A stretch of DNA of 64,000 nucleotides from Acidobacteriota bacterium (lineage in GTDB: Bacteria; Acidobacteriota; Holophagae; Holophagales; Holophagaceae), in assembly GCA_016195985.1 (NCBI GenBank), contig JACPYP010000011.1, positions 124,001 to 188,000 on the forward strand, in the 5' to 3' direction. The notes below the pieces were generated by a model. That model was not told the origin of the DNA. It ran no database searches and saw only the letters and a list, made by a program, of their open reading frames with translations. Numbering within the stretch: the first letter of the stretch is position 1; each line of letters opens with the position of its first letter. The position numbers were made by a program, and so were the translations under genes. Positions 24,432 through 40,286 of this stretch are shown here, piece by piece.

Positions 24432-24479
24432 TGGTGGCTGGAGGCAGACTCGAACTGCCGACCTAGGGATTATGAGACC
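24432..24479. repeat. Attachment site copy (left), 3' part of tRNA-Met
   Basis: These 48 bp are identical to 40239-40286 and correspond to the tRNA-Met 3' portion, from the anticodon-stem region to the encoded CCA. The bases just outside differ on both sides (24431 G against 40238 T; 24480 T against 40287 C), so the repeat is exactly 48 bp. It marks the left end of the integrated element. Confidence 0.93.
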
Positions 24480-24603
24480 TGATCCGTGACGTTTCTGCTT
24501 GTTTCTGGTTGTCGCAAGTATTGAAAATTAAGGCAAAAGAGACGCATAGGCACTTGCAGGAACATCGATTGGATGGATATTTGATGGACACGGCGGAGGA
24601 CCG

Positions 24604-25974
24604 ATGCCCAGATACGCGAAGACCGAATTGACCGACACCCGATGCCTCCGGGCCAAGGCGAAATCGAACAAGAAGACGGGCCAACTGGGCCAGAGCTACG
24701 AGTGGGATTCGCTGATTCACGGGTTCGGCCTGCGCATCACCGTGCAGACCAACGCCAAGACCGGTGCGCTGGAGCAGGGCGCCAAGAAGTTCTGTATGCG
24801 CTACGTGGGCCCGGACGGCAAGCGAAGCTGGATCCCCCTGGGTGCCTACACGGGCCCGGATTCGCTCAAGGAGGCACGGGAGAAGGCAGCGGCCGCCAAG
24901 AAGCAACTGGAGAACCTCCAGGACCCCAAGGTGGAGCGGAAGAAGCACCTGGATATTCCCAAACTGGAGGAATACGTGAAGACGTTCCTGGCCCTCCAGA
25001 AAACCCGGCTGCGGCCCGGCTCCTACAAACCAGCCGACTCCATGCTGAGCAAGTTGGTCGTGCCGGTGCTGGGAGAGTTCCGCGTCGCGGACGTCCAGAC
25101 GGCCCAGGTGAGCAAGCTCTTCCACGACGTCACCCGCGGCTGGCGTCCCTGGATGAAGCCCAGCGAAGAGCCCAAAGAGGCCACGCCGATTCGGGCGAAC
25201 CGGATGCTGGCGAACCTGCGAAAGCTCTTTGGCCAGGCCGAGAAGGACGGGCTCCGGCCGCAGGGCACCAACCCCTGCGTCTTGGTGGACAAGAACCAGG
25301 AGAGCAAGGGCAAGGAGCGGTTCCTCTCCCAGGACGAAATCGGCTGGATCGGAAGGATGCTGGAGGAGTCCCTGAAGTGGGACGACCGCAAGGCCTGCCC
25401 CTACGCCTGGGACAAGAAGGGGAAGGGCCTCGAGGTCCCCAGCATCTACGCACTGGCAGCCATCCGCCTCCTGATGTTCACGGGAGCGCGGCTGAATGAA
25501 GTCCTCCAGATGAAGTGGTCCCAGGTGGACAAGGTCCGCGGGGTGATCCGGATGGAGCAGCACAAGACCAGCGGGAAGACCGGCGCCAAGGAGCTGCCCC
25601 TGACTGCGGAGTCCCTCGCCATCCTCGAGGCCCTCGACAAGTTGCCCACGCGCAGGCTGGGGGGCCCCTGGGTCATCCAGGGCCACAAGCACGGCGCCCA
25701 CCTGGTCAACCTGCAGAAGACCTGGGACCGGATCCGGCGCGCCGTGAAACTGGCCTCAAAGGGGGAGGTGGACATTCAGGACGTCCGGTTGCACGACCTC
25801 AGGCACACCTTCGCCAGCATCGGAGTGAGCGGTGGAGTGAGCCTTCACATGGTGGGGTCCCTCTTGGGCCACGCGCAGGACAGCACGACTTACCGTTACG
25901 CCCACCTGGCGGCGAACCCCCGCCTGGAGGCCTCACAGCTCATCACCGCCAAGATCGCCGAGGCGCTGGGCTGA
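24604..25974 (+). CDS. int: Tyrosine recombinase / phage integrase
   Basis: A 456-residue integrase with an Arm-type DNA-binding N-terminus (GFGLRITVQTNAKTGALEQG), a SAM-like core-binding domain (about 110-230) and a catalytic domain. Catalytic residues: Arg in FTGARLNEVL (about 299), His-Arg in HDLRHTFAS (about 397-400), His in LLGHAQDS and Tyr in TYRYAHLAA (about 432). It should catalyse integration and excision between the phage site and the tRNA-Met 3' end. The gene begins 124 bp inside the left attachment repeat. The interval 24480-24603 probably holds integrase arm sites and the promoter. Confidence 0.96.
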   Translation: MPRYAKTELTDTRCLRAKAKSNKKTGQLGQSYEWDSLIHGFGLRITVQTNAKTGALEQGAKKFCMRYVGPDGKRSWIPLGAYTGPDSLKEAREKAAAAKKQLENLQDPKVERKKHLDIPKLEEYVKTFLALQKTRLRPGSYKPADSMLSKLVVPVLGEFRVADVQTAQVSKLFHDVTRGWRPWMKPSEEPKEATPIRANRMLANLRKLFGQAEKDGLRPQGTNPCVLVDKNQESKGKERFLSQDEIGWIGRMLEESLKWDDRKACPYAWDKKGKGLEVPSIYALAAIRLLMFTGARLNEVLQMKWSQVDKVRGVIRMEQHKTSGKTGAKELPLTAESLAILEALDKLPTRRLGGPWVIQGHKHGAHLVNLQKTWDRIRRAVKLASKGEVDIQDVRLHDLRHTFASIGVSGGVSLHMVGSLLGHAQDSTTYRYAHLAANPRLEASQLITAKIAEALG

Positions 25975-26021
25975 ACTCTCCACCACCCGCGGGGCCTCGC
26001 CTCGCAAAACTGGAGCCGACC

Positions 26022-26408
26022 ATGGCCAGGATTGCCAAGATCAAACACAGCACCGCGCGCGATCAGAGCCGGGATGCGGAGTTCCGTAGCATCAGTGCCC
26101 TGGTTAAGAAATACCTACAGAACCACGAACCCGAGATGGATCCTTGCCGCCCTTTCCATGCCGCCTCAAGGGACGAAGCTTGTGGCTGGAGCATGGCTCA
26201 AATTCACCTGATGGACGACACCACCACCCGGATGAAAGCCAATAGGGCGCCTGGCTCTGATTCCGACATTCGTATCGGCGTCCGGTTGTTCCTTGGCGTA
26301 GCTGGGGAAAGGTTATTCCGTAATGGAATGCCACTCACCACTGACTCCTTGAGAGAGGAACTGGATGTTGTTGTTGCGGAAATCGCCAAGATGGATCAAA
26401 CGGCCTAG
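26022..26408 (+). CDS. Hypothetical protein of the mobile element
   Basis: A 128-residue protein starting MARIAKIKHSTARDQSRDAE. ATG 26022 follows GGAG by 6 nt, 47 bp after the integrase stop. It is hydrophilic, with no signal, membrane segment or motif that I recognise. The middle has paired Cys and His (DPCRPFHAASRDEACGW), too irregular to call a zinc finger. It lies in the early region of the element, where accessory or anti-defence genes often sit. GC content is lower than in the host genes. Confidence 0.6.
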   Translation: MARIAKIKHSTARDQSRDAEFRSISALVKKYLQNHEPEMDPCRPFHAASRDEACGWSMAQIHLMDDTTTRMKANRAPGSDSDIRIGVRLFLGVAGERLFRNGMPLTTDSLREELDVVVAEIAKMDQTA

Positions 26409-26458
26409 GCGCATGCTTCTCCGCCCGGGAAACTCGATTGGCAACAATAAATATATCC

Positions 26459-26480
26459 ATTTCCGTGAGGCCACGGAAAT
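26459..26480. repeat. Inverted repeat ATTTCCGTG-N4-CACGGAAAT
   Basis: Perfect 9-bp arms with loop AGGC in an AT-rich gap (26409-26540) between two element genes. No T-run follows at once, so a repressor or activator site is at least as likely as a terminator. Confidence 0.5.
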
Positions 26481-26540
26481 CGTTAAAAACCATTTAAGTG
26501 ACTATCTTTTTTAATCAAAACAGGCACTAGAGGAGCCGTC

Positions 26541-26819
26541 GTGCAAACTCTCATTCCTACCCATCAGCTCACCCCTGACCAGGCCCTCGCCGGGATGCTG
26601 GTCGGCAACTTGCTGACCATTCCGCAGCTCTGCCAGACGTCCGAAAGGTGGTGCATCACAGAGGATTGTTTCTGGGATAACGGATCGGTGGTGGATTCAT
26701 TCCTCTTCATGGGTCTGCCGACTCACGTTCTGGAATTCGGCGGGTGCCAGCACGTGCTGATCAATCCGAAGGAATTTGATGACTTCATGGAGTCGATCTG
26801 TTCTGAAGAATCCGCCTAG
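26541..26819 (+). CDS. Hypothetical small protein of the mobile element
   Basis: A 92-residue protein starting at GTG 26541 with AGAGGAG 5 nt upstream. The sequence (for example ALAGMLVGNLLTIPQLCQTS and DSFLFMGLPTHVLEFGGCQH) is compact, acidic at the C-terminus and has five Cys, but no recognised domain. It begins 60 bp after an inverted repeat in the AT-rich promoter-like gap, so it may be first in its own transcript. Confidence 0.6.
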   Translation: MQTLIPTHQLTPDQALAGMLVGNLLTIPQLCQTSERWCITEDCFWDNGSVVDSFLFMGLPTHVLEFGGCQHVLINPKEFDDFMESICSEESA

Positions 26820-26918
26820 AATCACCACAGGCGTGGCTTGGGTAGCTCCCGAATCGCCGGTTCCCGTACCGGCTGCCGCGCCCCTTATGCGGGGCATCGA
26901 CGGGGGTGCAGCGTGATC

Positions 26919-27704
26919 ATGGAGAGCCAAGACTTGGTCGGAATAGCATTGAGGGCCTACCTGAGGCAGGACACCGGGTGGGAGGAGCTAGTGCGTATGG
27001 AAAAGGTCAATTCCTATGCGTGGAGCAGTGCTTTCACAATTCAATCGAATGAAGCCCTTGGCCGGGCGACCGACTGGTTAGCCGAGGCCCCCATTCCTCG
27101 TCAGCTTGCCGAGTTCCTCGCAGAAGACATGGCAAGAGAATTTCTTGTGGACCTAGATCGTGGAAAGCGTGGCCCCCGTGGAAAAGAGTCGCGGGACAAG
27201 TTAGACATGGTGGTCCAAAAAACAAATGAACTACTCGGGGCCTGGAGATCGTTGGACCAACTGACTCGCACCACAATTGCGTTTTCTTGGCTCGCTGAAT
27301 CTGAGTACAAGGACCTGCCGCCATCTTTCGAGACGTTGGGAGCTTTTCGCCTGTATGCAAAGGTGCTCGAAGACTCCCTTGCTCAGCTGTCGGCTGCGGC
27401 GCGCCTTTCATTGACGGTCGTTCCCCAAGACCAAGGCGGAGCTGCAAATTGGGCACATGACCCCACAGGAAAGAGTGCTCAAACTAGGCTCGCCCTCGTG
27501 GCTAGACACACCTTGAGAGTCTTGATGCGGAAAGCAGGTGGAGGCAAAGGAGGACCTCTAAGCTGCTTCATTGGCCTGATCAACCAGGCCGCCACAGGCG
27601 AAGAGGGGGCGCTATGGACAGACAAAGCCGCCGAGCGGGTATGCAAGCGACCGACCGACCAAGCTAGCCAGTCCCTGGACCGTGCAGAATTAGGCGGCGG
27701 TTGA
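26919..27704 (+). CDS. Hypothetical protein of the mobile element
   Basis: A 261-residue, mainly alpha-helical soluble protein (starts MESQDLVGIALRAYLRQDTG). ATG 26919 is preferred over an upstream TTG frame extension whose translation looks non-coding; GTG 26913 is also possible. The C-terminal part has a basic stretch, RHTLRVLMRKAGGGKGGP. No known domain is visible. GC content is lower and codon use more mixed than in host genes, as expected of accessory DNA. Confidence 0.55.
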   Translation: MESQDLVGIALRAYLRQDTGWEELVRMEKVNSYAWSSAFTIQSNEALGRATDWLAEAPIPRQLAEFLAEDMAREFLVDLDRGKRGPRGKESRDKLDMVVQKTNELLGAWRSLDQLTRTTIAFSWLAESEYKDLPPSFETLGAFRLYAKVLEDSLAQLSAAARLSLTVVPQDQGGAANWAHDPTGKSAQTRLALVARHTLRVLMRKAGGGKGGPLSCFIGLINQAATGEEGALWTDKAAERVCKRPTDQASQSLDRAELGGG

Positions 27705-27778
27705 GGGGTTACTCGGTTAGTAGCGCCTAGCGATCTTGGAAGTGTCCTGTTGATACAGGGCGTTTCCAGGAGACTCAA

Positions 27779-27973
27779 ATGTCTGACGCTCCCATTCCTT
27801 CCCGGGTCGCGTGGTCCGTTCGTGATTTCTGCAGCCACTTTTCGGTAAGCCGAGCGACGGTCTATCGCGCGTTTGATGCTGGACTGTTGGTGCGGTTGAA
27901 GTTGGGCCGCAAAACCCTTATCCCTGACGATTCCGTACAGGCCTGGTGGTCCAGTATCCAGAAGGCGGGGTGA
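27779..27973 (+). CDS. Excisionase / AlpA-like helix-turn-helix protein
   Basis: A 64-residue MerR-like HTH_17 protein: SVRDFCSHFSVSRATVYRAF forms the helix-turn-helix and GRKTLIPDDSVQAWWSS the wing that ends such domains. CAGGAG lies 6 nt before ATG 27779. Small proteins of this type act as excisionases or as activators of integrase and replication genes. It is the first of a run of tightly linked genes leading to the primase-helicase. Confidence 0.8.
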   Translation: MSDAPIPSRVAWSVRDFCSHFSVSRATVYRAFDAGLLVRLKLGRKTLIPDDSVQAWWSSIQKAG

Positions 27974-27975
27974 TC

Positions 27976-28236
27976 ATGCCTCGCCACTGGACCTATTCGG
28001 ACCCCAACCAGGGGGACTTGGAGCGCTGCGTCGAAGCTTGGCAGGAGCATTGCGGAAAGAACGCCGCCCTCACGCTCACCAAGACCCCCTCGAAACGAAT
28101 CTGCCGCGCCTTCTACACCCCCGATGGGCAGCGCGGAATCGAACTCCACACCGGAAACGGCCTCCTGGCCCGATTCCTCGTAACACCGGAACGCGTGACT
28201 CTCCTGGAGCGTGAACCGGAGCAGGTGGAAGAGTGA
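27976..28236 (+). CDS. Hypothetical protein upstream of the primase-helicase
   Basis: An 86-residue protein beginning MPRHWTYSDPNQGDLERCVE, 2 bp after the HTH gene stop (GTG 27970 is an alternative start). It is soluble, with a central stretch SKRICRAFYTPDGQRGIELH and an acidic end. No motif is recognised. Its position between an excisionase-like gene and the primase suggests a role in replication or its control. Confidence 0.65.
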   Translation: MPRHWTYSDPNQGDLERCVEAWQEHCGKNAALTLTKTPSKRICRAFYTPDGQRGIELHTGNGLLARFLVTPERVTLLEREPEQVEE

Positions 28237-28406
28237 GCGGGGCCGGCGCGTTCGCGCCCGGGCCCCAAGACGTGGATCTGCTCGTAATGGAAGCCGATGC
28301 CCTAGCTGCGGCCGGCGTGCCGTGGGAGTGGCGTGAGGCCCTCCACAGGTCCCTGCCGACCACACCGGAAGAGGGCGCACCGTGCCCAGGGGGATTCGGT
28401 GCCTGA
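28233..28406 (+). CDS. Very small ORF overlapping both neighbours
   Basis: A 57-codon frame from GTG 28233, which overlaps the previous stop as GTGA, to TGA 28404-28406, which overlaps the primase start at GTG 28399. The product (VDLLVMEADALAAAGVPWEW) is acidic and unremarkable. The double overlap is the only evidence of translation; it may serve to couple translation into the primase gene. Confidence 0.45.
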   Translation: MSGAGAFAPGPQDVDLLVMEADALAAAGVPWEWREALHRSLPTTPEEGAPCPGGFGA

Positions 28407-30468
28407 GATTCCATTCAAGGCCCTCAAGGCCGCCACACTGGCTGAAGGCGAGAGCCTGGTCCGCAGCTGGTTCCCCGAAGGGAAGCGTGAGGGCGACTGG
28501 TGGGTCTGCCTCAATCCGACCCGTGAAGATAAGAAGCTCGGATCCTTCAAAGTGAACCTGCTGGACGGTGGGTGGCTCGACTTCGCCGACAGTGGCGCCC
28601 ATGGTGGGGACCTGGTGGCACTCTATGCCGCAAAGTTTGGGCTGAGCCAGGGAGAGGCCGCCCGCGAGGTCGCCCAGCAGGTCGGAATCACCCTCCAGTC
28701 GGTCAACGGGAGCGGGAAGAAGCCCGCCTATGGCTCGAAACTGGGCCGGCATACCACCGAGTGGGTCTATCGCGGCCTGGATGGCGAAGAGATCTGCCGG
28801 GTCCGCAGGTACGACACCCCCGATGGAAAGGAATTCCGCCCCTTGATGGTGCAGGGCGGGAAAGAGATCTGGCAGTATCCCGCCGAACCCCGCCCCCTCT
28901 ACGGGTTGGACCGCCTGGCGGACGCGAACAAGGGCACCGTCCTGGTGGTGGAGGGTGAGAAGGCTGCTGATGCTGCTGCGCGCCTCTTCCCGTCGATGGC
29001 CGTGGTGACGTCACCCGCAGGCGCCAAAGCAGCCAAGAAAGCCGACTGGACGCCGCTACGGGGCCGCCAGGTGGTGATCTGGCCCGACCATGACGCCCCG
29101 GGCTTGGAATACGCCGCCGAAGTGCACGCGCAGCTCAAGGCCCTGGATGTGATCGCCCGGGTAGTGGAGGTGCCGAGTGCTTGGCCGGCGAAGTTCGACC
29201 TGGCTGATCCGATGCCCGCGAGAGTGGCGCCGTTCACTCTCCAGGAGCTCATCGACCAGGCGCAGCCGTGGAACGGGTCCGCCACGATGGCGGAGGCTGT
29301 GACGGCCAAACGTCTCGACTCCCTCAGGTGGTCGGCGATTCGCGGAATGGCCGTCCCGAAGGTCGAGTGGCATTGGAACCCTTTCTTTCCCAAGATCCCC
29401 TTCGGGCTCCTGGTCTCCCTGCCAGGCCACGGGAAGTCCATCCTCATGGTCCAGATCGCCGTGGCCATAGCCACCGGGCTGCCCCTCTTCGGATTCCCGA
29501 CTGGGACCCCAGGCGGCGTGGTCATCATCGCTCTGGAAGACGGAAAGGACACTCTCCACAGGCGCATCAAGGCGGCCGTCGAATCCTACGATGCGGCCTT
29601 CACCGAAGAGCACCACAGGCTCCTGGACATGAATCTCCGGGTTCTCTTCCGGTCTGAGAACCCCCTCGCCTACGAGTCCCCCGCAGCCCATGACATGGCA
29701 CTCACGGGTCTCATGGAAGAGATCATCGCCGAGGCGAACACCTGCGAAGCGCCGCTCCAAACCACCTTCATCGACACCTTCAACAACGTCCATGGGGGCG
29801 ACGAGAACAGCGCCCAGGAGACTCGGCCCATCGTCGCGGCCATCTACGCCCTCCACACCCGCCTCAAATGCTCCGTATGGGCTCTGCACCACCTCAAGAA
29901 GGCCGGCACCGCTAGGAATGCTCCTCCAATCCCAGAACGCATGGATCCCGACGGCAGCCGTGGAAGCGGAGCGATCCTTGGCGCTGTCCGCGGTCAGATC
30001 CAGTTCGGCTGGATCTATCCCAAGGAGGCCCTCAAAGTCGGACTAGAACCCGACGGCGCCGCCCGGCGATACGCCATCATGGGGCTCACTAAGATCAACG
30101 ACGGACCGCCCACCCCTTGGCTTCTCCTCGAGCACACAGCCAACGCCGGTCTGTGGGCACCAGTCCCGAACGGTGCCGAGGTCCTCGCGCGGCTGCGGGG
30201 CAGTGACGCTATCGAGAAGGCCACCACTGCCGACCTCGTGCTCATGGCCGTCTATGAGGCGCAGCAGTGTCACCGACAGATCGACCGCGCCGACGTGGCT
30301 TCCAAACTCTTCGGGGACCACAAGAAGCCATCCGGAAGCCTCAGCACTTACCTGTCCCGCCTTGTCACTGACCGCCTTGTCACTGCGGACAAGAGAGGCC
30401 TCACTGAAGCCGGCCTCCGCCGCGTCAAAGAACTACTCGAAGCCGATGGGGGGTCCGATGTTGCCTGA
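28399..30468 (+). CDS. Phage primase-helicase (Toprim plus RepA/RecA-like ATPase)
   Basis: A 689-residue replication protein. The N-terminus has a CHC2-like region without the usual cysteines (WWVCLNPTREDKKLGSFKVN, FADSGAHGGDLVALYAAKFG). A Toprim domain follows with VLVVEGEKAADAAARLFP (about 181) and VIWPDHDAPGLEYAAEVH. The C-terminal half is an AAA_25/RepA-like ATPase with Walker A LPGHGKSI (about 341-348), Walker B TTFIDTFNNVHGG and sensor-like VWALHHLKK. It should prime and unwind the element's DNA. GTG 28399 follows GGGGGATTC. An origin-like repeat region begins right after the stop, consistent with self-directed replication. Confidence 0.88.
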   Translation: MPEIPFKALKAATLAEGESLVRSWFPEGKREGDWWVCLNPTREDKKLGSFKVNLLDGGWLDFADSGAHGGDLVALYAAKFGLSQGEAAREVAQQVGITLQSVNGSGKKPAYGSKLGRHTTEWVYRGLDGEEICRVRRYDTPDGKEFRPLMVQGGKEIWQYPAEPRPLYGLDRLADANKGTVLVVEGEKAADAAARLFPSMAVVTSPAGAKAAKKADWTPLRGRQVVIWPDHDAPGLEYAAEVHAQLKALDVIARVVEVPSAWPAKFDLADPMPARVAPFTLQELIDQAQPWNGSATMAEAVTAKRLDSLRWSAIRGMAVPKVEWHWNPFFPKIPFGLLVSLPGHGKSILMVQIAVAIATGLPLFGFPTGTPGGVVIIALEDGKDTLHRRIKAAVESYDAAFTEEHHRLLDMNLRVLFRSENPLAYESPAAHDMALTGLMEEIIAEANTCEAPLQTTFIDTFNNVHGGDENSAQETRPIVAAIYALHTRLKCSVWALHHLKKAGTARNAPPIPERMDPDGSRGSGAILGAVRGQIQFGWIYPKEALKVGLEPDGAARRYAIMGLTKINDGPPTPWLLLEHTANAGLWAPVPNGAEVLARLRGSDAIEKATTADLVLMAVYEAQQCHRQIDRADVASKLFGDHKKPSGSLSTYLSRLVTDRLVTADKRGLTEAGLRRVKELLEADGGSDVA

Positions 30469-30730
30469 GACCGTCACACAACACGTCACACAGAAAACAC
30501 GTAATTACAGAATTTTCAACACTGGCGCGGGTTCTGCTGTGTGCGATCTGTGTTCCGTTCTGTGTGATCACCCGGAAGTGGATGGGGGTAGGGGACGACC
30601 TAAGGAGTCCCTACCCACCATCCTGGCGATGCCGTCACACACGGAGTTATTTATAAGGGGGCTGTGTTCTGTGGTTTTGAGGATTGGCGCGGGTTTGCAA
30701 CGGCAGCCCGTCACACATGTGTGCTGCACA
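30469..30730. other. Candidate replication origin: iteron-like repeats and large hairpin
   Basis: Non-coding region after the primase-helicase. GTCACACA occurs four times in direct orientation (30473, 30485, 30634, 30710). TGGCGCGGGTT occurs twice, 162 bp apart (30523, 30685). Between the two sets is a near-perfect 17-nt-armed inverted repeat (30580-30596 with 30607-30623). CACACATGTGTG is a 12-bp palindrome at 30712-30723. An AT-rich stretch is at 30645-30655. Iterons plus AT-rich DNA beside a helicase gene is a typical plasmid or phage origin layout. Confidence 0.6.
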
Positions 30731-31020: not shown

Positions 31021-31194
31021 ATGACCCTCCCCGGCTTCTCCCACCCCGCCACCTCAGAGCAGATTCGCTGGGCCCTCGGCTTATTCACCCCATCTGAACA
31101 GGAGGCCCAGGCACGCCGAGAGACTGAGAATGCCCAGCGCCAGGCCAAGGAAGCCACCAAGGGGCGACCCCTCTTCGACCTGGAGGCCTTGTGA
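31021..31194 (+). CDS. Small hypothetical protein of the mobile element
   Basis: A 57-residue protein (starts MTLPGFSHPATSEQIRWALG). Strong GGAGG 7 nt before ATG 31021. The second half is a charged amphipathic helix (EQEAQARRETENAQRQAKEA). Its stop overlaps the glycosyltransferase start as GTGA, so the two are coupled. No family is recognised. Confidence 0.65.
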   Translation: MTLPGFSHPATSEQIRWALGLFTPSEQEAQARRETENAQRQAKEATKGRPLFDLEAL

Positions 31195-32159
31195 CCCCCG
31201 CGCAATCCACCCAGTGGGCCAATTACTGTGAGTCCTACTGGGCCCTGCTTCGGGGGGAGATGCCCGGCGGCTGGGACCTACACGAGCACCGCTGGACGGC
31301 CGAATTGTCCAAGCCTGCCTTCCTTCAACCCCAGCACGAGTGGCGAGGCGAAGACTTCCAGCGCCGCTCCTTGCTGCTGTATTACGAGCAAGGCGCGGGC
31401 GACATGTTCCAGTTCATCCGTTTTGCCTCAATGGTGAAACCCCGCGGTGGCCAGGTGCTCCTTGCCTGCACTGCAGACCAGGCGGATGTCCTGGGGACCT
31501 GCCCGGGGATCGACGAGGTTTGGCCAGTCGTCCACGGCCGTCCTGGGCCCACCCCAGGCTTCGACCTACACCTGCCGGTGTGCTCCCTGCCGCGCATCTT
31601 CAGGACGGACCTGGCCACGATCCCCAGCAGCTGCCCATATCTGAGTGTTCCACCGTTCGTCCGCACCCGTGAGCTGCTGGTCAGCCTGACGGCCCGGGTG
31701 GACGGATACCGGCGTGTGGGGCTCATGTGGGCAGGCAGTCCAACCCACCCGAATGACAAGAATCGCTCGATCCCACCAGGCGCCCTGGACGCCCTGGCAT
31801 CCATTCCCGGGTGCGCCTGGTTTGGCTTCCAGCTCGAACCGAAGGCAACGCCAAATCTCCCCGGCCTGGTCAACCTAGGGGCTGCCCTAATCACCTGGTC
31901 AGAGACCGCCTTCGCCCTGTCCCAGATGGACCTTCTGATCACCGCGGACACCGGGATTGCCCATCTTGCGGGCGCCATGGGCGTGCCCGTGTGGGTGCTG
32001 CTGCCCTATTTCCCGGACTTCCGCTGGCTGCTCGACCGATCGGACAGTCCTTGGTACCCCACCATGCGGATCTTCAGGCAGCCGAAGCCGGGGGACTGGC
32101 CATCTGTCTTGGCTGAAGTGGTGGCAGCCCTGGGCTCACTCTCAAGAGGAGCGGCATGA
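31191..32159 (+). CDS. GT9 / TPR-associated glycosyltransferase-like protein
   Basis: A 322-residue protein with the heptosyltransferase-superfamily C-terminal domain: VGLMWAGSPTHPNDKNRSIP, then DLLITADTGIAHLAGAMGVP (donor-binding loop) and VWVLLPYFPDFRWLLDRSDS. Its N-terminus (YYEQGAGDMFQFIRFASMVK) matches TPR-linked glycosyltransferases but lacks the TPR repeats. GTG 31191 overlaps the preceding stop, and its end overlaps the next gene by 4 bp. In a phage element it might glycosylate the host surface (superinfection exclusion), a virion protein or DNA; the sequence does not decide. Such a gene is uncommon in minimal elements. Confidence 0.75.
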   Translation: MTPAQSTQWANYCESYWALLRGEMPGGWDLHEHRWTAELSKPAFLQPQHEWRGEDFQRRSLLLYYEQGAGDMFQFIRFASMVKPRGGQVLLACTADQADVLGTCPGIDEVWPVVHGRPGPTPGFDLHLPVCSLPRIFRTDLATIPSSCPYLSVPPFVRTRELLVSLTARVDGYRRVGLMWAGSPTHPNDKNRSIPPGALDALASIPGCAWFGFQLEPKATPNLPGLVNLGAALITWSETAFALSQMDLLITADTGIAHLAGAMGVPVWVLLPYFPDFRWLLDRSDSPWYPTMRIFRQPKPGDWPSVLAEVVAALGSLSRGAA

Positions 32160-32713: not shown

Positions 32714-32919
32714 GTTCCTCCGAGTGGATCAGCATCTCGGAAGCCGCAGCCCTTGCGGGCTACAGCGGCGACTATTTCCGTCGCATCTTCTGCAATCCAG
32801 AGACACCGCTGATCCGGATTCGCGTGATAACGGGCCCAAAGGGGGGGCGCCGGATCTTTGTCTGGCGCCCTGCGGTGGAGGCGTTGGTCCTTGCTCAAGT
32901 CCGCGAACCGGTTTTGTGA
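32710..32919 (+). CDS. Small HTH-like protein
   Basis: A 69-residue protein starting at TTG 32710 (TTGA overlap with the previous stop). WISISEAAALAGYSGDYFRR looks like a helix-turn-helix of the HTH_17 type, followed by a wing-like GGRRIFVWRPAVEAL. It may be a DNA-binding switch for late genes. The TTG start is inferred from the overlap. Confidence 0.55.
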   Translation: MSSSEWISISEAAALAGYSGDYFRRIFCNPETPLIRIRVITGPKGGRRIFVWRPAVEALVLAQVREPVL

Positions 32920-33018: not shown

Positions 33019-33150
33019 ATGACCACCAAGAAACCACTCAAAAAGGCCTTCGGTTACGGCGGTGAGACCGCGCAGAAGGCCGCCACCACACCAACCCTTA
33101 AGCAGGCCTTGGCGAAGATCGACCAGGCCGCTCAGAAGAAAGCGAAGTGA
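33019..33150 (+). CDS. Very small lysine-rich protein
   Basis: A 43-residue ORF (MTTKKPLKKAFGYGGETAQK, ending QAAQKKAK) with GAGGAG 5 nt before ATG 33019, and the next gene starts 3 bp after its stop. It is very basic. Position and ribosome site make it a likely real gene of the phage morphogenesis region. Function unknown. Confidence 0.6.
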   Translation: MTTKKPLKKAFGYGGETAQKAATTPTLKQALAKIDQAAQKKAK

Positions 33151-33153
33151 CCC

Positions 33154-33444
33154 GTGCCATTTCTCGTCTTCAGTCCCAACGGATTTTCCGACCTCAACGG
33201 GACCCGTTTCATTCCGGATGCGAATGGATGGTGCACGGTTCCGGATATGTCCACGATTCAGGCACCCCTTGAATCTGGCTTTGCGGTGATGGTCCCCGTC
33301 CAGCTCATCGTGTGCACTACCGCGAAGCGCCCGACGACGAACCTACTTCCTGGAATGAACCTCTTCGATTCCACCCTCGGCAAGCCTATCTGGCGAAACG
33401 CCGCCAACTCTCAGTGGGTCGATGCCACTGGCACCACTGTTTAA
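33154..33444 (+). CDS. Phage-type hypothetical protein
   Basis: A 96-residue protein with GTG start 33154. Its C-terminus, FDSTLGKPIWRNAANSQWVD followed by ATGTTV, resembles an ending found in many phage fibre or head-associated proteins, where this block is conserved. The rest is beta-rich. I infer a minor structural protein, with limited certainty. Confidence 0.6.
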   Translation: MPFLVFSPNGFSDLNGTRFIPDANGWCTVPDMSTIQAPLESGFAVMVPVQLIVCTTAKRPTTNLLPGMNLFDSTLGKPIWRNAANSQWVDATGTTV

Positions 33445-33456
33445 GGAGCCCTGCCA

Positions 33457-34011
33457 ATGTCGATGCCTGGATCCCTCTTTCAACCTGGTGCCCCTACCTG
33501 CCGCATGATTCCGCCGAATGGAGCAGGTGGGGCATTCCCTGCAACACATGGCCGATCTTACAGAGTGTCCCCTGGTGCTGCCGCAGCCGTGCACCTGGAG
33601 GATGTGGAGACCCTGGAGGCTCAGGGGTGGCGACGGATCGACGCAGTCCCAGCTCCTGCTCTCACACCTGAGCAGCTCCGCACGCGCCAGGAAGCTGCCG
33701 AGCGTGCTTCTTGGCGCAAGATTCCGGAAGGTTCACCGATGGGCCGGGTGATCCCACCCATGACCGGAAGCCTGACGATTGAAGGGCGCACCTACAACTC
33801 AGTGAAGGGCGCCGCGCTTGACGTCCCCATGGAGGATGCGCGGATTCTGGCGTGCAATGGATGGCTCCTGTTCGGCTATTGCGGGGGGCTAGAAGCTCGT
33901 CCTGCTCAACCGCGGATTGGAGAAATCTTCGTGGTGACGCCTGCTGAGCAGGTGATCCAGTTCGATGGCCGAAGTTGGCGAGATGTCAGCACTGGAAGCG
34001 TTGTTCCGTGA
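33457..34011 (+). CDS. Phage-type hypothetical protein with internal duplication
   Basis: A 184-residue protein. Two related units are visible: about residues 19-60 (HGRSYRVSPGAAAAVHLEDV, LEAQGWRRI) and 100-140 (EGRTYNSVKGAALDVPMEDA, LACNGWLLF). Each has R-(S/T)-Y, a Gly-Ala turn, an Asp-Val helix and a closing GW. The C-terminus, IGEIFVVTPAEQVIQFDGRS, is a separate small beta unit. It looks like a small structural or decoration protein; no family name can be given. Confidence 0.6.
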   Translation: MSMPGSLFQPGAPTCRMIPPNGAGGAFPATHGRSYRVSPGAAAAVHLEDVETLEAQGWRRIDAVPAPALTPEQLRTRQEAAERASWRKIPEGSPMGRVIPPMTGSLTIEGRTYNSVKGAALDVPMEDARILACNGWLLFGYCGGLEARPAQPRIGEIFVVTPAEQVIQFDGRSWRDVSTGSVVP

Positions 34012-34125
34012 ATCCCGCCTAGGAAACGGGGCCGGGCATCGTCGGGTTCGTGCAGGCCGATGGTGCCCGTTTTCTGATTCGAAACCCCTCCTTTGCCGGC
34101 TGAGCCGACCTTCCGGAGATTCCAA

Positions 34126-36420
34126 ATGTCCGACAACGAAGTAAATGTAAAGATCAGCGCAGACATCAAGAGCTTCCTTCAGGGCATGAAGGAGGCCTCT
34201 GAGAACGTCGAGAAGTCCACCGCCGCCATCAAAGGCGACCTGGGCAGCATGATCGAGTCTTTCGAGCACCTGGGTTTTGCATCTCTGGCAATTGGTGTTG
34301 TAGGGCTGGCCTTTGAAGGGCTCAAGGAGTCCGCAGAATTCATCAAGGAATCCATCGAGGAGACGCACGAGCTAGCACGCTCCTTTAAGGATCTCGCTTA
34401 CCAAACAGGCATCAGCCACGAGGAACTCAACAACCTCAATACAGCCCAAACCCTGGAGGGCGGGACCATCCAGGAGCTTGAAGGCTGGATGAAGGGCGCC
34501 ACCAAGGCGATCAAGGCCAACGCCGACATGCTGGTTGAGAACGGCATCGCCGCCAGCAAAGCAGAGCTGATGGCCATGCCCTTCACCGACTACCTGAAAA
34601 AGGTCATGGCGGCTGCGGAGAGCATTCACGATCCCATGCGGCGCGGGATCTTCCTTCAGGAGGCTCTGGGCCGGGCGGGCATGGAAGCGGCGCCGCAGAT
34701 CCGGGAGATGCTGGAGCAGCTTGAAGTCGCACCTGAAACACTACGGCGCTACGGGCGGGCCATTGGTCAGGACAACGTCGAGGACATGGAGCGTTTCGAG
34801 CATGCGACCGGGAAGGTCAAGATCGCCACCCAGGGCCTGAAGCAGACACTTGCCGAAACCTTCGGCGACAACCTGGTGACCGCGAAGGAGCGATGGGCTG
34901 ATTTCGTTTCCAACTGGTCAGCAGGGCTTCATGAACTACTTGGCGATGGGCCAAATGTCGCCATCCGAAAGCAAATTGAGGCAATGAAAAAGGAAATTGC
35001 CAAGGGACAGGAAGAGATCCGAGCCATGGGTGGGGTGGCGCCCGAGATGCCTGGAGAGCAGGGGCATGAGCAGGAGGTCGGCAAAAAAATTCATATCAAT
35101 GAGGAAATAAATGACGCCAAGAAGGCCGCCGCAGACCGCCTGGCGATTCGTCGGCTCACGGATGGCGCCATCATCCGCAGCGCCGAATACGTTTTTCAGG
35201 AGCAGGTGAAGAACGACAAGGAACTCGTGGCCTCAAGCGCCATGACGCAAGCGGAGATGGAAGCGGATCTGCGGCGCGCTGCCAAGGAACGCCTGGACAC
35301 CGTGATGAGCGCTTTGAAGGACGAGGAGAAGGCCAACGCGAGGATGCCTGTCGAGTTGAAGGCAACCCTGGACAAAGAGAAGCAGGCGCAGGAGCAATAC
35401 AGCGCCTCCATGTTGGAGCTTGGTCGCCAGACATCTGAGCAGGCCCGCAAGGACAAGGAAAAGACCGATGCTGAGGCCGAAAAGGCGCGCAAGCAGAACC
35501 TCGAATTAGCGAAGCGCGGCGCACAGGACAAATTGAACCTCGTGCATTCCGAATTGGAGGCCAAGGAGCGAGTCCTGGATCAGGATCTGGCCTTTGGCCG
35601 CATCAACGAAGACCAGTGGGTAGCCATGAGGAAGGCTGGCGTCGCGCAGGAACTGAAGGCCCAGTTAGATGCCCTGAACACAGAGCAGAAGGCCGCCGAG
35701 GGCGACTTGGTGCACTGGACGAAAATTGAGAACCAGAAAAGCGCACTTCGTCGAAAGGCTGATGGAGACATCCAAAAGCTCGACATTGAGGCCGTGAACC
35801 GCTCCAAGACCCGCTGGGACGGGTTCTTTAGCAGCATGACCGGTGGCTGGGAGTCCGCGGTCAAGGGCCTCATCCACGGCACTCTGACTTGGGGGGATGC
35901 CTTCAAGGAGGTGTTGAACCAAGGGCTGGACGGCCTCATCAGCTTCTTCGTGCGCTGGGGTGAAGAGGAGGCCATCAAGTGGGCCACCAGTGAGGCGATG
36001 GGAAGAACTGGACGGACTGAGGAAGCCACGGGGGCTGCTGCCGTCTACGCCATCAATGCTATGGCCAGCGTGGCTGCCATTCCCTTCTGGGGGTGGGCGG
36101 CTGCGCCTGGGGTTGGTGCCGAAGCCTATGGCGCTGGCCTTGCCTTCGCAGGCCTGGCGTCCGCAGAAGGCGGGTGGGAGCGCGTGCCATCGGACCAGGT
36201 GGCCCAGCTCCACAAGAACGAGCAGGTCCTCCCCGCCAGCTATGCCGAGGGCCTCCGAAGCTTGGTCGCAAGTCACCAGACAGGCGAGGGGCAGCAATCA
36301 GGTGGCGAAACCCATGTCCATTTCCACGGGACGTTGATCGATTCGACCTTTTGGCAAAAGCACCAAGGGCCAATCATCCAGACCGTTCAGGACGCCATCA
36401 GGAATCGGAGGACGAAGTGA
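34126..36420 (+). CDS. Phage tail tape-measure protein
   Basis: A 764-residue protein. ATG 34126 follows GGAG by 7 nt. The N-terminus (VNVKISADIKSFLQGMKEAS) is the usual tape-measure opening. A hydrophobic stretch (LASLAIGVVGLAFEGL-like, about 50-75), a long Lys/Glu/Gln/Ala coiled coil (about 280-560), and a C-terminal hydrophobic Gly/Ala-rich region (IPFWGWAAAPGVGAEAYGAG) then SDQVAQLHKNEQVLPASYA are typical. In tailed phages this protein sets tail length and aids DNA ejection. No tail-tube, chaperone or baseplate gene is present, so it cannot build a tail by itself. Confidence 0.82.
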   Translation: MSDNEVNVKISADIKSFLQGMKEASENVEKSTAAIKGDLGSMIESFEHLGFASLAIGVVGLAFEGLKESAEFIKESIEETHELARSFKDLAYQTGISHEELNNLNTAQTLEGGTIQELEGWMKGATKAIKANADMLVENGIAASKAELMAMPFTDYLKKVMAAAESIHDPMRRGIFLQEALGRAGMEAAPQIREMLEQLEVAPETLRRYGRAIGQDNVEDMERFEHATGKVKIATQGLKQTLAETFGDNLVTAKERWADFVSNWSAGLHELLGDGPNVAIRKQIEAMKKEIAKGQEEIRAMGGVAPEMPGEQGHEQEVGKKIHINEEINDAKKAAADRLAIRRLTDGAIIRSAEYVFQEQVKNDKELVASSAMTQAEMEADLRRAAKERLDTVMSALKDEEKANARMPVELKATLDKEKQAQEQYSASMLELGRQTSEQARKDKEKTDAEAEKARKQNLELAKRGAQDKLNLVHSELEAKERVLDQDLAFGRINEDQWVAMRKAGVAQELKAQLDALNTEQKAAEGDLVHWTKIENQKSALRRKADGDIQKLDIEAVNRSKTRWDGFFSSMTGGWESAVKGLIHGTLTWGDAFKEVLNQGLDGLISFFVRWGEEEAIKWATSEAMGRTGRTEEATGAAAVYAINAMASVAAIPFWGWAAAPGVGAEAYGAGLAFAGLASAEGGWERVPSDQVAQLHKNEQVLPASYAEGLRSLVASHQTGEGQQSGGETHVHFHGTLIDSTFWQKHQGPIIQTVQDAIRNRRTK

Positions 36421-36707
36421 ACACCATCCGCATTCCAAACCTGATGGAAATCCCACAGAACAACGAAGGGGACCGCGATCTGCTCCCAGTCGCCTGGGCG
36501 CTTCTCCTGGATCTGCCGAAGCAAGAGCCTGGCTTCCGTTACAAGATCCTTGGGAATCTTGAAGGAGAGGGTGGCTGGTTCCAGGCACGCTGTGAGCCAG
36601 ATGGAACCTTGACGGTTCAAAAGGAATGCATCGCGACGAGGTTAGGCGGCACCCTCTTCTTCGCCCTGAGCGAGCTTGCCCCTGACCTCGTGAGAGTAGA
36701 ACCATGA
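36417..36707 (+). CDS. Hypothetical protein between tape measure and terminase genes
   Basis: A 96-residue acidic protein. GTG 36417 overlaps the tape-measure stop (GTGA), and its stop overlaps the TerS start (ATGA). The sequence GFRYKILGNLEGEGGWFQAR suggests a compact beta fold. No motif is recognised; position suggests a tail or packaging accessory protein. Confidence 0.6.
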   Translation: MNTIRIPNLMEIPQNNEGDRDLLPVAWALLLDLPKQEPGFRYKILGNLEGEGGWFQARCEPDGTLTVQKECIATRLGGTLFFALSELAPDLVRVEP

Positions 36708-37264
36708 GCAAGGTAGAACCCCTTAAGCCCAAGACAAGGGTGGACTGGGAGGCCATCGAGCGCCTGTACCGCACGACCTTCCTCAGCCTCCGGGACATAG
36801 CCGCCACCCACGGCACCAAGCCCAGCACGATCCAAAGCCGGGTCAGGGCTGGGCGGTGGACCCGAGGAGCCGTGGCCAACAAGCGACAGATCGTTGCCGA
36901 GGCCCAGGCCGGCGTAATCCCCGGCATGAAACCCGAAGCAACCAAGAAGGCCCAGGAGAAGGCCATCGCGGAAGACTTGGAGGATATGAAAACAGGCCTC
37001 ACAGGGTATCGGCGCCTCCTCAACGTAATGCAGCAAGCCGCGGATCGCCTACAGGTCACAGACCCCCTGGTGGACAAGAAGGCCAAGGTTATGGCCGAAA
37101 CCATCGACAAGGCTGTCGATGGAATCAGGAAGATTCGTGGCTTGGATGACCCCAACAAGAAAGCCCTCACACAGGACGAACTCAATGAGCTCATCGCAGA
37201 GATTGCAGGCGAAATTGGATCGGCTCAACGATCTGATCCCCTCTCAGAAGCAGCAGGTTGTTGA
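36704..37264 (+). CDS. terS: Terminase small subunit-like protein
   Basis: A 186-residue protein. The N-terminal helix-turn-helix (DWEAIERLYRTTFLSLRDIA; THGTKPSTIQSRVRAGRWTR) is typical of small terminases that recognise the packaging site. The middle is a helical oligomerisation region, and the C-terminus overlaps the large-subunit gene by 80 bp in another frame. It would choose the DNA to be packaged, and in a satellite this is the subunit that redirects packaging. Confidence 0.8.
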   Translation: MSKVEPLKPKTRVDWEAIERLYRTTFLSLRDIAATHGTKPSTIQSRVRAGRWTRGAVANKRQIVAEAQAGVIPGMKPEATKKAQEKAIAEDLEDMKTGLTGYRRLLNVMQQAADRLQVTDPLVDKKAKVMAETIDKAVDGIRKIRGLDDPNKKALTQDELNELIAEIAGEIGSAQRSDPLSEAAGC

Positions 37265-38723
37265 GGCCCTCCTCCAGGTCAAGCGAGGATGGAAACCCTT
37301 CCCCGGGCCCCAAACCCAGGCCTTTGAGTCTGAGGCGGATATCCTCCTCTACGGCGGGGCAGCAGGAGGCGGAAAGACCGACCTGGGCCTCGGTTTGGCC
37401 AGGCGAAAGCACTCCCAGAGCATCATCTTCCGGCGCGTGTTCCCGAGCCTTCGTGGAATCGAAACCCGGGCTCGGCAGATGTATGCCCCGGAGACGGGCT
37501 ACAACGAGTCTCTGCACCGCTGGAAATTCAAGGATGGGCGCCAAATTGAATTCGGCTCCCTCCAATACGACAAGGACGTTACGAACTACCAAGGCCAGCC
37601 GCATGACCTCTATGTATTCGACGAAATCACTGAGTTCACCGAGGCCCAGTTTCGCTTTGTGATTGGCTGGAACCGCACAACGAAAAAGGGACAGCGGTGC
37701 CGCATCGTTTGCACAGGCAATCCGCCGACATCCCAGGATGGGGCCTGGGTCATCCAGTTCTGGGCGCCCTGGCTAGACGAGAATCACCCGAATCCAGCCC
37801 TACCCGGTGAGCTTCGCTGGTTCACCACCATCGGCGGCAAGGACCAGGAGATGCCCAACGGCGACCCTGTGCTCATCGATGGAGAACTGGTGTCACCAAG
37901 GTCGCGGACCTTCATCCCCGCTCGGGTTCAGGACAACCCTGCGCTTCTCGGGACCGATTATCTGGCGACCCTCCAGGCCCTGCCAGAACCGCTGCGCTCG
38001 AAGATGCTCTACGGCGATTTCAAAGCCGGGGCTGAAGATGCCCGGAACCAGGTCATTCCTACAGAGTGGGTGAAGGCGGCACAGGACCGCTGGACCGAAG
38101 ATGGTCACGTGGGCAATGCGATGACCTGCCTTGGCGTCGATGTGGCCCGCGGCGGTAAGGACAAGACGGTCATCACCCCCCGGCATGGCAACTGGTTCGG
38201 CCGCGCCTGGGCCTATCCAGGTTCAAGCACACCGGACGGCCCCGTCGTCGCCGGCCTGGTGCTCCAGCACCACCAGCGGCCAGCCAAGATCAACGTGGAT
38301 GTGATCGGCGTGGGCGGGAGCGTCTACGACTTCTTGAAGGATTGCGACGGCATCGAGGTAGTGGCCATCAACGGCGCAGCAGGAAGCAAGAGTAAGGACC
38401 TCTCCGGCGCACTGGGGTTCTTCAACCTGCGCGCAGAGAATTGGTGGAAGCTCCGAGAGGCCTTGGATCCTGCCAGTGGTGAGGACTTGGCCATCCCGCC
38501 GGATCCCGAGCTCAAGTCAGACCTCTGTGCTCCCACGTGGAAGGTGACCGCGCGCGGGATCCAGGTGGAGGCTAAGGACGACATCATCGCCAGAATTGGA
38601 CGCAGCCCAGATCGTGGTGATTCGCTCGTCTACGCCCATGCCCAGGCGTACCTCCCGGGGCAGGGGCTCCTGGATTACATCCGGGAAATGGCTGAAGAGC
38701 GCCGGAGACAGGAGGCCTCGTGA
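37185..38723 (+). CDS. terL: Phage terminase large subunit
   Basis: A 512-residue packaging motor. The ATPase has Walker A LLYGGAAGGGKTDLG (about 57-65) and Walker B LYVFDEITEF (about 142-147), with a coupling motif in RIVCTGNPP. The nuclease domain has GVDVARGGKDKTV (about 317) and a later acidic pair near DRGDSLVYAHA. ATG 37185 follows AGGA and overlaps TerS by 80 bp. In tailed phages a portal gene usually follows; here a secreted-protein gene follows instead. The domain set is complete, so the motor could be active. Confidence 0.92.
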   Translation: MSSSQRLQAKLDRLNDLIPSQKQQVVEALLQVKRGWKPFPGPQTQAFESEADILLYGGAAGGGKTDLGLGLARRKHSQSIIFRRVFPSLRGIETRARQMYAPETGYNESLHRWKFKDGRQIEFGSLQYDKDVTNYQGQPHDLYVFDEITEFTEAQFRFVIGWNRTTKKGQRCRIVCTGNPPTSQDGAWVIQFWAPWLDENHPNPALPGELRWFTTIGGKDQEMPNGDPVLIDGELVSPRSRTFIPARVQDNPALLGTDYLATLQALPEPLRSKMLYGDFKAGAEDARNQVIPTEWVKAAQDRWTEDGHVGNAMTCLGVDVARGGKDKTVITPRHGNWFGRAWAYPGSSTPDGPVVAGLVLQHHQRPAKINVDVIGVGGSVYDFLKDCDGIEVVAINGAAGSKSKDLSGALGFFNLRAENWWKLREALDPASGEDLAIPPDPELKSDLCAPTWKVTARGIQVEAKDDIIARIGRSPDRGDSLVYAHAQAYLPGQGLLDYIREMAEERRRQEAS

Positions 38724-38812
38724 ACATCCCGATATACATAGGCCGGAATTATTAGGCAGGCTGTTCTTTCAGTGGTAGAAGATCGACAGAGAATCAATGA
38801 TGAGGAGGTAGT

Positions 38813-39463
38813 GTGAAGACGACTATTCTTGCGTGCGTGTTCTCCCTTTCGGCCCTTGGGCAGGAACCAGCCCCTGCTCCCGCACCCGTCACGGAACCAG
38901 CGCCTGCTCCGGTCCCGGTCCCGGTTCTGACCCCCGCCCAGACGCGTGACCAGGCCCTCATTAAGCTCATCGATGGGCGTAGATCCTACCTCCCCAACGC
39001 CCTGGAAGGCGCGGCGCTGTCCGATGGGAAGGGTGACCACAAGCTAACCTCCATCCCTGGAAACTTCAGCCACACCTTCGCCTTCGTGACGGCGCTCTTT
39101 TATGCCGACTTCCCTGATCAGCACGCGGAGTTCCGCGCTGCGGGGAACACCCCCACCATCTGGATCCGCATTGATACCAACCCGAAGGGGCGCGTATTCC
39201 TGGTGAAAGCCAAGGTGAATGAGCGGACCCAGAATCGTTCCGTCAAGGTTGGCCGGTCCGGGTTTGGCAGCGTGAGCAGCATCATGGTTCCCGATTCCGA
39301 CTGGACAGTGCCGTTCACATCCAAGGACCACGGCGATGGGCTGTGGGAGATCACCCCCAAGGCCCCGCTCAAGCCGGGCGAGTACGGCATCTTCGCCAGC
39401 GCGATGGCATCAGGCGCGCCGACTGGCGGCGGTGGAATCCTCTACGACTTCGGCATCGACTAG
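38813..39463 (+). CDS. Secreted protein with Pro/Ala linker, unknown function
   Basis: A 216-residue exported protein. GTG 38813 has a strong GAGGAGG site. The signal peptide MKTTILACVFSLSALGQ is followed by a Pro-Ala-Val linker (EPAPAPAPVTEPAPAPVPVP) and a globular beta-rich domain (GRVFLVKAKVNERTQNRSVK, EYGIFASAMASG). It sits downstream of terL where portal genes usually lie. It may be cargo (a lysogenic-conversion gene) altering the host envelope; no family is recognised. Confidence 0.65.
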   Translation: MKTTILACVFSLSALGQEPAPAPAPVTEPAPAPVPVPVLTPAQTRDQALIKLIDGRRSYLPNALEGAALSDGKGDHKLTSIPGNFSHTFAFVTALFYADFPDQHAEFRAAGNTPTIWIRIDTNPKGRVFLVKAKVNERTQNRSVKVGRSGFGSVSSIMVPDSDWTVPFTSKDHGDGLWEITPKAPLKPGEYGIFASAMASGAPTGGGGILYDFGID

Positions 39464-39466
39464 GCC

Positions 39467-39673
39467 ATGACCAAGCGCTCTGGCATCCCTGGCCTCAGCT
39501 TCTCTTGGCGCCGCGCCCTGGGCGTCTCCGCTGCGCAGGCGAAGCTATCCCGCAAGGTCGGCGTTCCCCTCTCGCGGAGCGGCCGTCAGCGCAAGGTGGG
39601 CAGATCGCTGGGCTGTGGCGTCCTGGTGGCCACCATCGGGGCCGGGTGGTCCGTGCTAAGGATGCTGGTTTGA
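39467..39673 (+). CDS. Small basic phage-type protein
   Basis: A 68-residue protein starting MTKRSGIPGLSFSWRRALGV, 3 bp after the preceding stop. It is very basic (GVPLSRSGRQRKVGRSLGC) and ends with a hydrophobic segment (VLVATIGAGWSVL). The pattern of a Trp-Arg-Arg helix plus RSGRQRK recurs in small phage and plasmid proteins. Function unknown. Confidence 0.6.
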   Translation: MTKRSGIPGLSFSWRRALGVSAAQAKLSRKVGVPLSRSGRQRKVGRSLGCGVLVATIGAGWSVLRMLV

Positions 39674-39692
39674 ACGATTAAGGAGGAAGCGA

Positions 39693-40013
39693 ATGGAGGG
39701 CCGAAAACCTGGGGTGCGCCCTGGAACACCATCCCCGATGAAGAAACAGTGGGTGATTAGGGTGGATGGTCAATTCATCCGAATCGAGGGACTTCCAAGC
39801 CAGCCACCGCCCGGTGTCCCGACCTACTTCGAAAATTCCAAATCAGCCCAGATCGCGGCTCAACACATTGCCCAAGCTCTTGGTATGGGGCTAGTCGCCG
39901 AACTGCTGGCTGTGAACCGAAAGTGGCTCTTGTCTGTGGCACGAGGTGAAATCACGGGCCTGCGGATGAAACAGGTTTCCTGGCCAGTGCCGATTGTTCG
40001 GTTTCCCCGATAG
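39693..40013 (+). CDS. Hypothetical protein, last gene of the element
   Basis: A 106-residue protein (ATG 39693, with AAGGAGG about 6 nt upstream). It is soluble, with FENSKSAQIAAQHIAQALGM as a predicted helix. No motif recognised. The following 180 bp to the tRNA terminator are AT-rich and hold no other gene. Confidence 0.6.
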   Translation: MEGRKPGVRPGTPSPMKKQWVIRVDGQFIRIEGLPSQPPPGVPTYFENSKSAQIAAQHIAQALGMGLVAELLAVNRKWLLSVARGEITGLRMKQVSWPVPIVRFPR

Positions 40014-40194
40014 GTTCGTGGCAACCAAATTGGAAGGGGAGTGACGGTCTTCGCCAGGAGGTGACCTTGAGCGCCATCGGGGGTGATGGAAGGTCGGCAC
40101 ACGCTATTTTTTTTGTTTGAAATTATACGGGATGGCTACGGCGGGTATTTTGGGGGTGTCCAAACCGCTTGTAAGTGTTGAACGGGTGACGCAA

Positions 40195-40229
40195 GAAAAA
40201 GCCCCGAGGACTCAGCATCCACGGGGCTT
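40195..40229 (-). terminator. Element-encoded terminator for tRNA-Met
   Basis: Arms 40199-40206 and 40222-40229 form AAGCCCCG/CGGGGCTT; on the minus strand the hairpin is followed by TTTTTC. It lies 9 bp beyond the tRNA-Met 3' end, inside the element, and replaces the host terminator now displaced to 24400-24426. Confidence 0.8.
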
Positions 40230-40238
40230 CATGTCGTT

Positions 40239-40286
40239 TGGTGGCTGGAGGCAGACTCGAACTGCCGACCTAGGGATTATGAGACC
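40239..40286. repeat. Attachment site copy (right), inside intact tRNA-Met
   Basis: The 48 bp identical to 24432-24479. This copy completes the intact tRNA-Met gene at the right border of the element. Confidence 0.93.

Follow-up and report, generated by a model that had tools for sequence, protein, structure and literature searches.

What is a 15.8-kb element that encodes both terminase subunits and a tape measure protein (TMP), and in which no capsid or portal gene is recognised? We examined this question in a 64,000-nucleotide stretch of an Acidobacteriota genome (assembly GCA_016195985.1, contig JACPYP010000011.1, positions 124,001 to 188,000; hereafter the window), in which a tRNA-Met gene of Geothrix, a soil bacterium of the Acidobacteriota (the genus judged from its near relative Geothrix oryzisoli), is the insertion site of such an element (24432-40286). 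Perfect 48-bp direct repeats were found at both ends. The left one (attL, 24432-24479) is identical to the right one (attR, 40239-40286), which is the 3' part of the tRNA-Met gene at 40239-40315 on the minus strand, and the distance between the repeat starts is 15,807 bp. When the joined flanks were used as a query, the empty tRNA-Met site was unbroken in some 20 or more further Geothrix genomes; the query split into two pieces in the source genome (G000) and in Geothrix oryzisoli (G007). As in satellites generally, the element has its own integrase, regulator and replication gene with an incomplete set of virion genes; its att sites are defined, and a relative, not the window copy itself, was seen as a circle. 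With a probability of roughly 0.7, we consider it an intact integrated phage satellite that has its own terminase, uses helper heads and carries a TMP that suits the tail of its helper, and that belongs to a family of satellites found in Geothrix-like Acidobacteriota.

The genes in question are all on the plus strand. The TMP (34093-36420, 775 aa) matched phrog_2854 over positions 5-799 of the 855-position profile, and was 61% identical to that of the G. oryzisoli element and 50% to that of prophage G036. The terminase small subunit (TerS; 36704-37264, 186 aa; phrog_1206, E 5e-16) showed 49-78% identity among the satellites. The large subunit (TerL; 37197-38723, 508 aa; phrog_979, E 1e-49; PF03237, Terminase_6N) was 83% identical to that of G. 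oryzisoli, 70-78% to those of satellites from IMG/VR, and 73% to that of a siphophage contig, L048. Between TMP and TerS lies a gene for a 96-aa protein (36417-36707), which lies after the TMP gene both in the window and in the members of layout B (see below), and ahead of TerS both in the window and in contig L045; it had no match in the annotated phages G025 and L048. Neither the TMP nor TerS matched any of 50,697 phage records, and the window TMP, used as a single query against viral contigs, also gave no match, whereas an alignment search found relatives.

Pfam and PHROG searches revealed no portal, capsid, protease, tube or lysis family in the element, and there was no unassigned open reading frame (ORF) of portal size in it or in the G. 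oryzisoli element. The initial annotation had described 48-bp repeats in a tRNA-Met gene, an integrase, a helix-turn-helix (HTH) gene, a primase-helicase, TerS, TerL, a TMP and undamaged ORFs, all of which were confirmed by the repeat, Pfam and PHROG searches. It had also stated that capsid, portal and lysis genes are absent. Indeed, none was found, but head-region genes are not entirely missing from the element. In its C-terminal half, a 184-aa protein (33457-34011) is related to a siphophage protein of 95-99 aa encoded beside the protease or capsid gene, as with the 95-aa protein beside the portal and protease genes in the Geothrix siphoprophages G025, G036 and G017, whose TMP genes are at the normal tail position. 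A 96-aa protein (33154-33444) shares the C-terminal motif of the 184-aa protein, a motif of virion-structural or tail-fibre type (phrog_20787, E 2.5e-8), and has 58-59% identity to its counterparts in L046 and the circular relative. Hidden structural folds, proposed in the initial annotation as a check, were not encountered: a fold search with the model of the 184-aa protein (pLDDT 88) gave no capsid or portal fold among its matches, only weak ones to GINS-type domains, the C-terminus of lambda gpFI and small tailspike motifs, and that with the 36417-36707 protein, at a best Z of 3.9, was uninformative.

A resemblance to a head gene was also found in two type-B members, in which a short ORF (L044 3149-3439; circle, L222 rotated, 7856-8182) resembles residues 251-334 of a siphophage head protease, that is, its scaffold-like C-terminus, at an E of about 1e-14 in a small comparison. 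From this likeness, the ORF might be a candidate head-assembly factor that redirects head size. The 43-aa protein of the window (33019-33150) resembles the C-terminal part of the same ORF.

We then considered a second copy. The genome of G. oryzisoli (NZ_JAKZLB010000001.1) contains the same element in the same tRNA-Met gene with the same 48-bp core, at 15,681 bp between the repeat starts; the initial annotation had called for such related elements with the same gene order. The shared order comprises the integrase (75% identity), a glycosyltransferase-9 (GT9)-like protein (44%), an HTH protein (57%), the 184-aa protein (46%), TMP (61%), TerS (78%) and TerL (83%), and the replication gene is replaced by that of a different protein of 797 aa with its own iterons. 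In all six genes compared (integrase, TerS, TerL, TMP, 184-aa and GT9-like), the nonsynonymous divergence (dN) was well below the synonymous divergence (dS), which was near saturation for some of them. The same site and order, the near-equal length and the low dN together argue that the element is not decaying after a deletion.

Profile searches with TerL and TMP further identified at least five IMG/VR contigs with the same module (L044, L045, L046, L047 and L049). The right ends lie at tRNA-Met in L044 and L046, tRNA-Cys in L045 and tRNA-Ser in L047. L049 (IMGVR_UViG_3300009175_000006) has a perfect 123-bp terminal repeat and closes as a circle of 14,094 bp. After rotation, its attP, with the 3' part of a tRNA-Pro-like gene, lies just before the integrase, and is followed by the replication-region genes, small proteins, TerS, TerL, a tail assembly chaperone (TAC), TMP, and the 96-aa and 68-aa proteins. 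No head gene was found in the circle, whose large ORFs sit at the integrase, replication, terminase and TMP positions, and because the contig closes, this gene list is complete and head-free. Two layouts were recognised: in layout A (window, G. oryzisoli and L045) the TMP gene precedes TerS-TerL, and in layout B (L044, L046, L047 and the circle) the order is TerS-TerL-TAC-TMP. The TMP is present in the window, in G. oryzisoli and in every member long enough to show it, and the TAC in layout B only. Another contig, L161 (1-10681), has a third arrangement, with a primase, a TMP of 644 aa, TerS, a possible endonuclease and a TerL of a different family, followed by relatives of the 69-, 184- and 96-aa proteins and no recognised head genes.

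The terminase and the TMP gave different histories. TerL of seven satellites formed one clade (SH-aLRT 100), with the complete siphophage L048 as its sister. The satellite TMPs, in contrast, did not form one clade (p-AU 7e-9 for the six members of the TerL clade with a full-length TMP, 2e-18 for seven including L161). They were nested among phage TMPs in distinct clades, and the neighbouring siphophage TMP differed from clade to clade. Those of the window and G. oryzisoli grouped with phages L134 and L124 and prophage G036, and the G. oryzisoli TMP was 63% identical to that of L134; the trees were quick searches with SH-aLRT support only, and this grouping of the two TMPs was itself unsupported. 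The type-B TMPs grouped with L048 at 42-44% identity, and the type-B TAC was 57-70% identical to that of L048. A block at positions 1-2940 of L045, containing TMP and two tail-tip genes, matched the DNA of phage L131 at 92% identity and that of L124 and L128, which share their source metagenome with L045, at 87%; the similarity ended just before the satellite's own genes. Judging from these identities, the block appears to be a recent transfer of a tail cassette between phage and satellite.

The initial annotation had further proposed that the element may redirect the packaging and the tail length of its helper. For the tail length, this was not supported. Type-A TMPs are 761-775 aa long and the matching phage TMPs 761-771 aa, and type-B TMPs are 762-820 aa against about 760 in phage, that is, equal or about 50-60 aa longer. 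A change in tail length thus does not appear, from the predicted proteins, to be a consistent consequence of the satellite TMP.

The siphophage L048 (3300022555_000146) closes at 36,603 bp, with portal, protease, capsid, tube, TAC and TMP present. The metagenome that yielded the circle, 3300009175, also yielded a siphophage contig, L228, whose shared proteins were 100% identical to those of L048. The TerS of L048 belongs to phrog_51 and that of the satellites to phrog_1206, with no BLAST similarity between the two. By sequence, the satellite TerL is of the same lineage as one siphophage TerL, and the satellite TerS is of a different family from that of the siphophage. A BPP-1-like TerL match of about 50% among the phage records had raised the idea that a siphovirus tail gene had been combined with the terminase of a podovirus; this was rejected because TerL of this type is found together with capsid, tube and TMP in the siphophages L048 and L067.

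From these data a life cycle can be proposed. Growth of a compatible siphophage would lead to excision and replication of the satellite. Satellite TerS-TerL would then load satellite DNA into procapsids made by the helper, with the satellite TerS setting the specificity, and the satellite TMP would enter helper-made tails to give chimeric tails, as in the phage-inducible chromosomal island (PICI)-like elements (PLEs). Type B would add its own chaperone to these tails, and L045 its two tail-tip genes; the small proteins of 96 and 184 aa may have a role at the head. As arithmetic only, a length of 14-16 kb would fit a T=4 head derived from a 36.6-kb phage with a T=7 head, (4/7)^1.5 x 36.6 being 15.8 kb. 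We give about an even chance to the fuller form of this scheme, in which the satellite brings a whole TerS-TerL motor and an exchangeable tail cassette, borrows head and tail tube, and switches helpers by swapping its TMP on a fixed packaging backbone.

Several observations weigh against the satellite interpretation. Layout-A members have no recognisable tail chaperone, and the window copy holds only the last part of the protease-C-terminus-like ORF, without the scaffold-like part. The circular form is known from the relative L049, whereas the window copy is known as the integrated form. L044-L047 are contig ends, and in L045 the TMP side is the open one, where head genes are possible beyond the contig. 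Co-occurrence of phage and satellite was seen in two metagenomes only. Finally, the initial annotation had suggested looking for a co-resident prophage with a differing TerL and TMP; no candidate helper prophage was found in the source genome, where a siphophage capsid search also gave no match, or in G. oryzisoli, the Pfam capsid and portal searches having covered the source genome only.

Another use of the TMP is conceivable: it could be a decoy that spoils helper tails, as interference or defence, and does not serve satellite particles. Tail-assembly interference is known to target the TMP (PMC12987554), defence commonly acts on tail assembly (PMC11364771), and the similarity between element and phage TMPs is partial and mosaic. 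However, the TMP is full-length with conserved ends and is accompanied by a chaperone in type B or by tail-tip genes in L045, which gives it the look of a functional assembly module, and deletion of tmp in PLE reduces the satellite's own transfer. We regard the decoy as improbable. An integrative element that has phage genes as cargo and moves by non-viral transfer seems a poorer explanation still. Packaging is indeed deduced here from genes, and the same tRNA-Met hosts unrelated islands, but the strong purifying selection on both terminase subunits and a TMP that tracks phage types would be difficult to account for if the element were not packaged.

The initial annotation had itself named a deleted prophage as its alternative to a satellite. 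In that case, a siphoprophage would have lost its portal, capsid and most tail genes and would now be decaying. Siphophage homologues do exist for TerL, TMP and the 184-aa protein, and the lack of a helper in the source genome would fit. Yet gene set, order, site and near-identical length are kept in a second species at 61-83% identity under purifying selection, and several relatives, including the closed circle, show the same absences. Moreover, the TMP gene of the window copy lies before TerS, which is not the position expected after a deletion, and the satellite TerS is unrelated to that of siphophages. The unique breakpoints and decaying frames expected of a prophage remnant were not seen; the element is conserved in two species and several contigs, with dN below dS. 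With the single TerL clade in addition, the choice of a satellite over a deleted prophage was upheld, and we consider the deletion very unlikely. Least credible is an element of the capsid-forming PICI (cf-PICI) kind with head genes diverged beyond recognition, since its own TerS and TerL and the tmp reported in some cf-PICIs fit, but neither Geothrix element has an unassigned portal-size ORF, the large ORFs of the circle are accounted for by position, and the 184-aa model has no capsid or portal fold.

The remaining genes of the satellite, all on the plus strand, were in open reading frames in the ORF list of the window. The tyrosine integrase (24604-25974, 456 aa; PF00589, Phage_integrase, E 1.7e-21; phrog_1) had 75-77% identity in G. 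oryzisoli. It is followed by a 92-aa protein with no family match (26541-26819), a protein of up to 288 aa with a weak match to an IS1182 transposase N-terminus (26838-27704; E 2.8e-6, far under the family cut-off), an HTH_17 excisionase- or regulator-like protein of 64 aa (27779-27973; PF12728, E 5e-7; phrog_66) and a 96-aa ORF (27946-28236). The primase-helicase (28333-30468, up to 711 aa; AAA_25, PF13481, E 7e-32; phrog_239) had 52% identity in L044. Directly after it, the origin-like repeats that had been noted at the outset (30471-30717) were found to be real iterons: CGTCACACA occurs four times within 30472-30717, and no 9-mer was that frequent in 2000 shuffles. G. oryzisoli and L044 have iterons at the same place, different from those of the window.

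Downstream of the iterons are a 49-aa protein also present in L044 (31046-31194) and the GT9-like protein (31191-32159, 322 aa), a weak family match that may be cargo or accessory. This gene is kept in both Geothrix satellites (L007 4250-5569 in G. oryzisoli), and surface modification or superinfection exclusion is a possible role. A 185-aa ORF (32156-32713) and a small HTH-like protein of 69 aa follow (32710-32919), the latter being family-wide (57% in G. oryzisoli, 52% in L044). After TerL come a 216-aa ORF (38813-39463), a 68-aa protein (39467-39673) and a 106-aa ORF (39693-40013). The 68-aa protein is strongly conserved (82-91% identity) and adjoins the right end of L044-L047 and of the circle, but is absent in G. 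oryzisoli, where an SRAP-domain-like protein (L007 11862-12539) replaces the 216-aa and 68-aa genes. As a satellite-specific marker the 68-aa gene was rejected: 17 of the 93 genomes of the class have it, and some of its copies do not belong to an element. It also occurs in a small Geothrix element, L238 (integrase, 910-aa protein and 68-aa gene; L236-L240), and alone in chromosomes.

An Rfam scan of the element gave the tRNA as its sole match, and a promoter scan gave nothing above shuffled sequences. Within the element, PADLOC gave no convincing defence gene, a weak match of the primase to DnaG being all that it reported; just outside the left att lies an Mrr-like type IV restriction enzyme (22517-24268, minus strand; mREase_IV, E 1.6e-112). 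Split matches at the same tRNA-Met in G006, G032, G041 and G016 suggest other inserts there. The 29-kb insert in G006 was rejected as a relative, as it is an unrelated island without phage or satellite structural genes.

The V. cholerae PLEs are among the closest known systems. They have their own TMP and TAC, with which they form chimeric tails, and tmp genes are putative in PLE-like elements and some cf-PICIs; TMP substitution was demonstrated by transmission electron microscopy, western blot and mass spectrometry, deletion of tmp cut transfer by 96-99.9%, and until PLE a TMP was not reported from any other satellite (PMC12987554). The present family resembles them as integrated satellites with their own TMP and, in type B, TAC, although its chimeric tails are predicted from genes alone. 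PLE TMP groups are likewise less than 25% identical between members, and some members have further tail genes (PMC12987554). Compared with PLEs by description, not by sequence, the present family differs in its own TerL and TerS, its tRNA integration, and its association with Acidobacteriota siphophages instead of ICP1. cf-PICIs share the own TerS and TerL, the dependence on helper tails that is predicted here and, in some, a putative tmp, but their defining head genes (capsid, protease, portal and connectors; PMC10690885) are absent here. Staphylococcus aureus pathogenicity islands (SaPIs), other PICIs and P4-like elements are similar in size (about 15 kb), integrase, HTH regulator and replication gene, and many SaPIs have their own TerS. 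Those elements use the helper TerL, whereas this one encodes its own and so falls outside the SaPI/PICI type. No Sid, Psu, delta or P4 alpha family was recognised in the Pfam and PHROG searches, which divergent versions could escape. The Pseudomonas satellite AH14b (16.8 kb) is likewise small and lacks head genes, and a single gene of it is related to tail assembly (PMC4936722), but that gene is a homologue of tail assembly protein I, not a TMP. MulchRoom and MiniFlayer of Streptomyces have their own terminase (PMC10690885), but differ in having capsid and portal genes and no primase.

Accordingly, satellites with a working TMP (PLE, 2026) and satellites with TerS and TerL (cf-PICI, Mulch/Flayer) are known, the latter with head genes. 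No description of a satellite with TerS, TerL and TMP but without head genes, or of Acidobacteriota satellites, was found in a search that left most subscription journals and preprints outside. The statement that the element matches no described type thus stands for this combination, but not for the TMP itself, which is known in PLEs and putative in some cf-PICIs.

The function of a satellite TMP was first shown in 2026, in one family. Since TerL of the present satellites forms one clade and TMP does not, and since a candidate helper of 36.6 kb can be named, the question of whether TMP is the helper-compatibility gene is directly testable. In host, helper type and terminase this family stands apart from the PLE setting; if the satellite interpretation is true, it would therefore show tail reprogramming to be a strategy of satellites in general.

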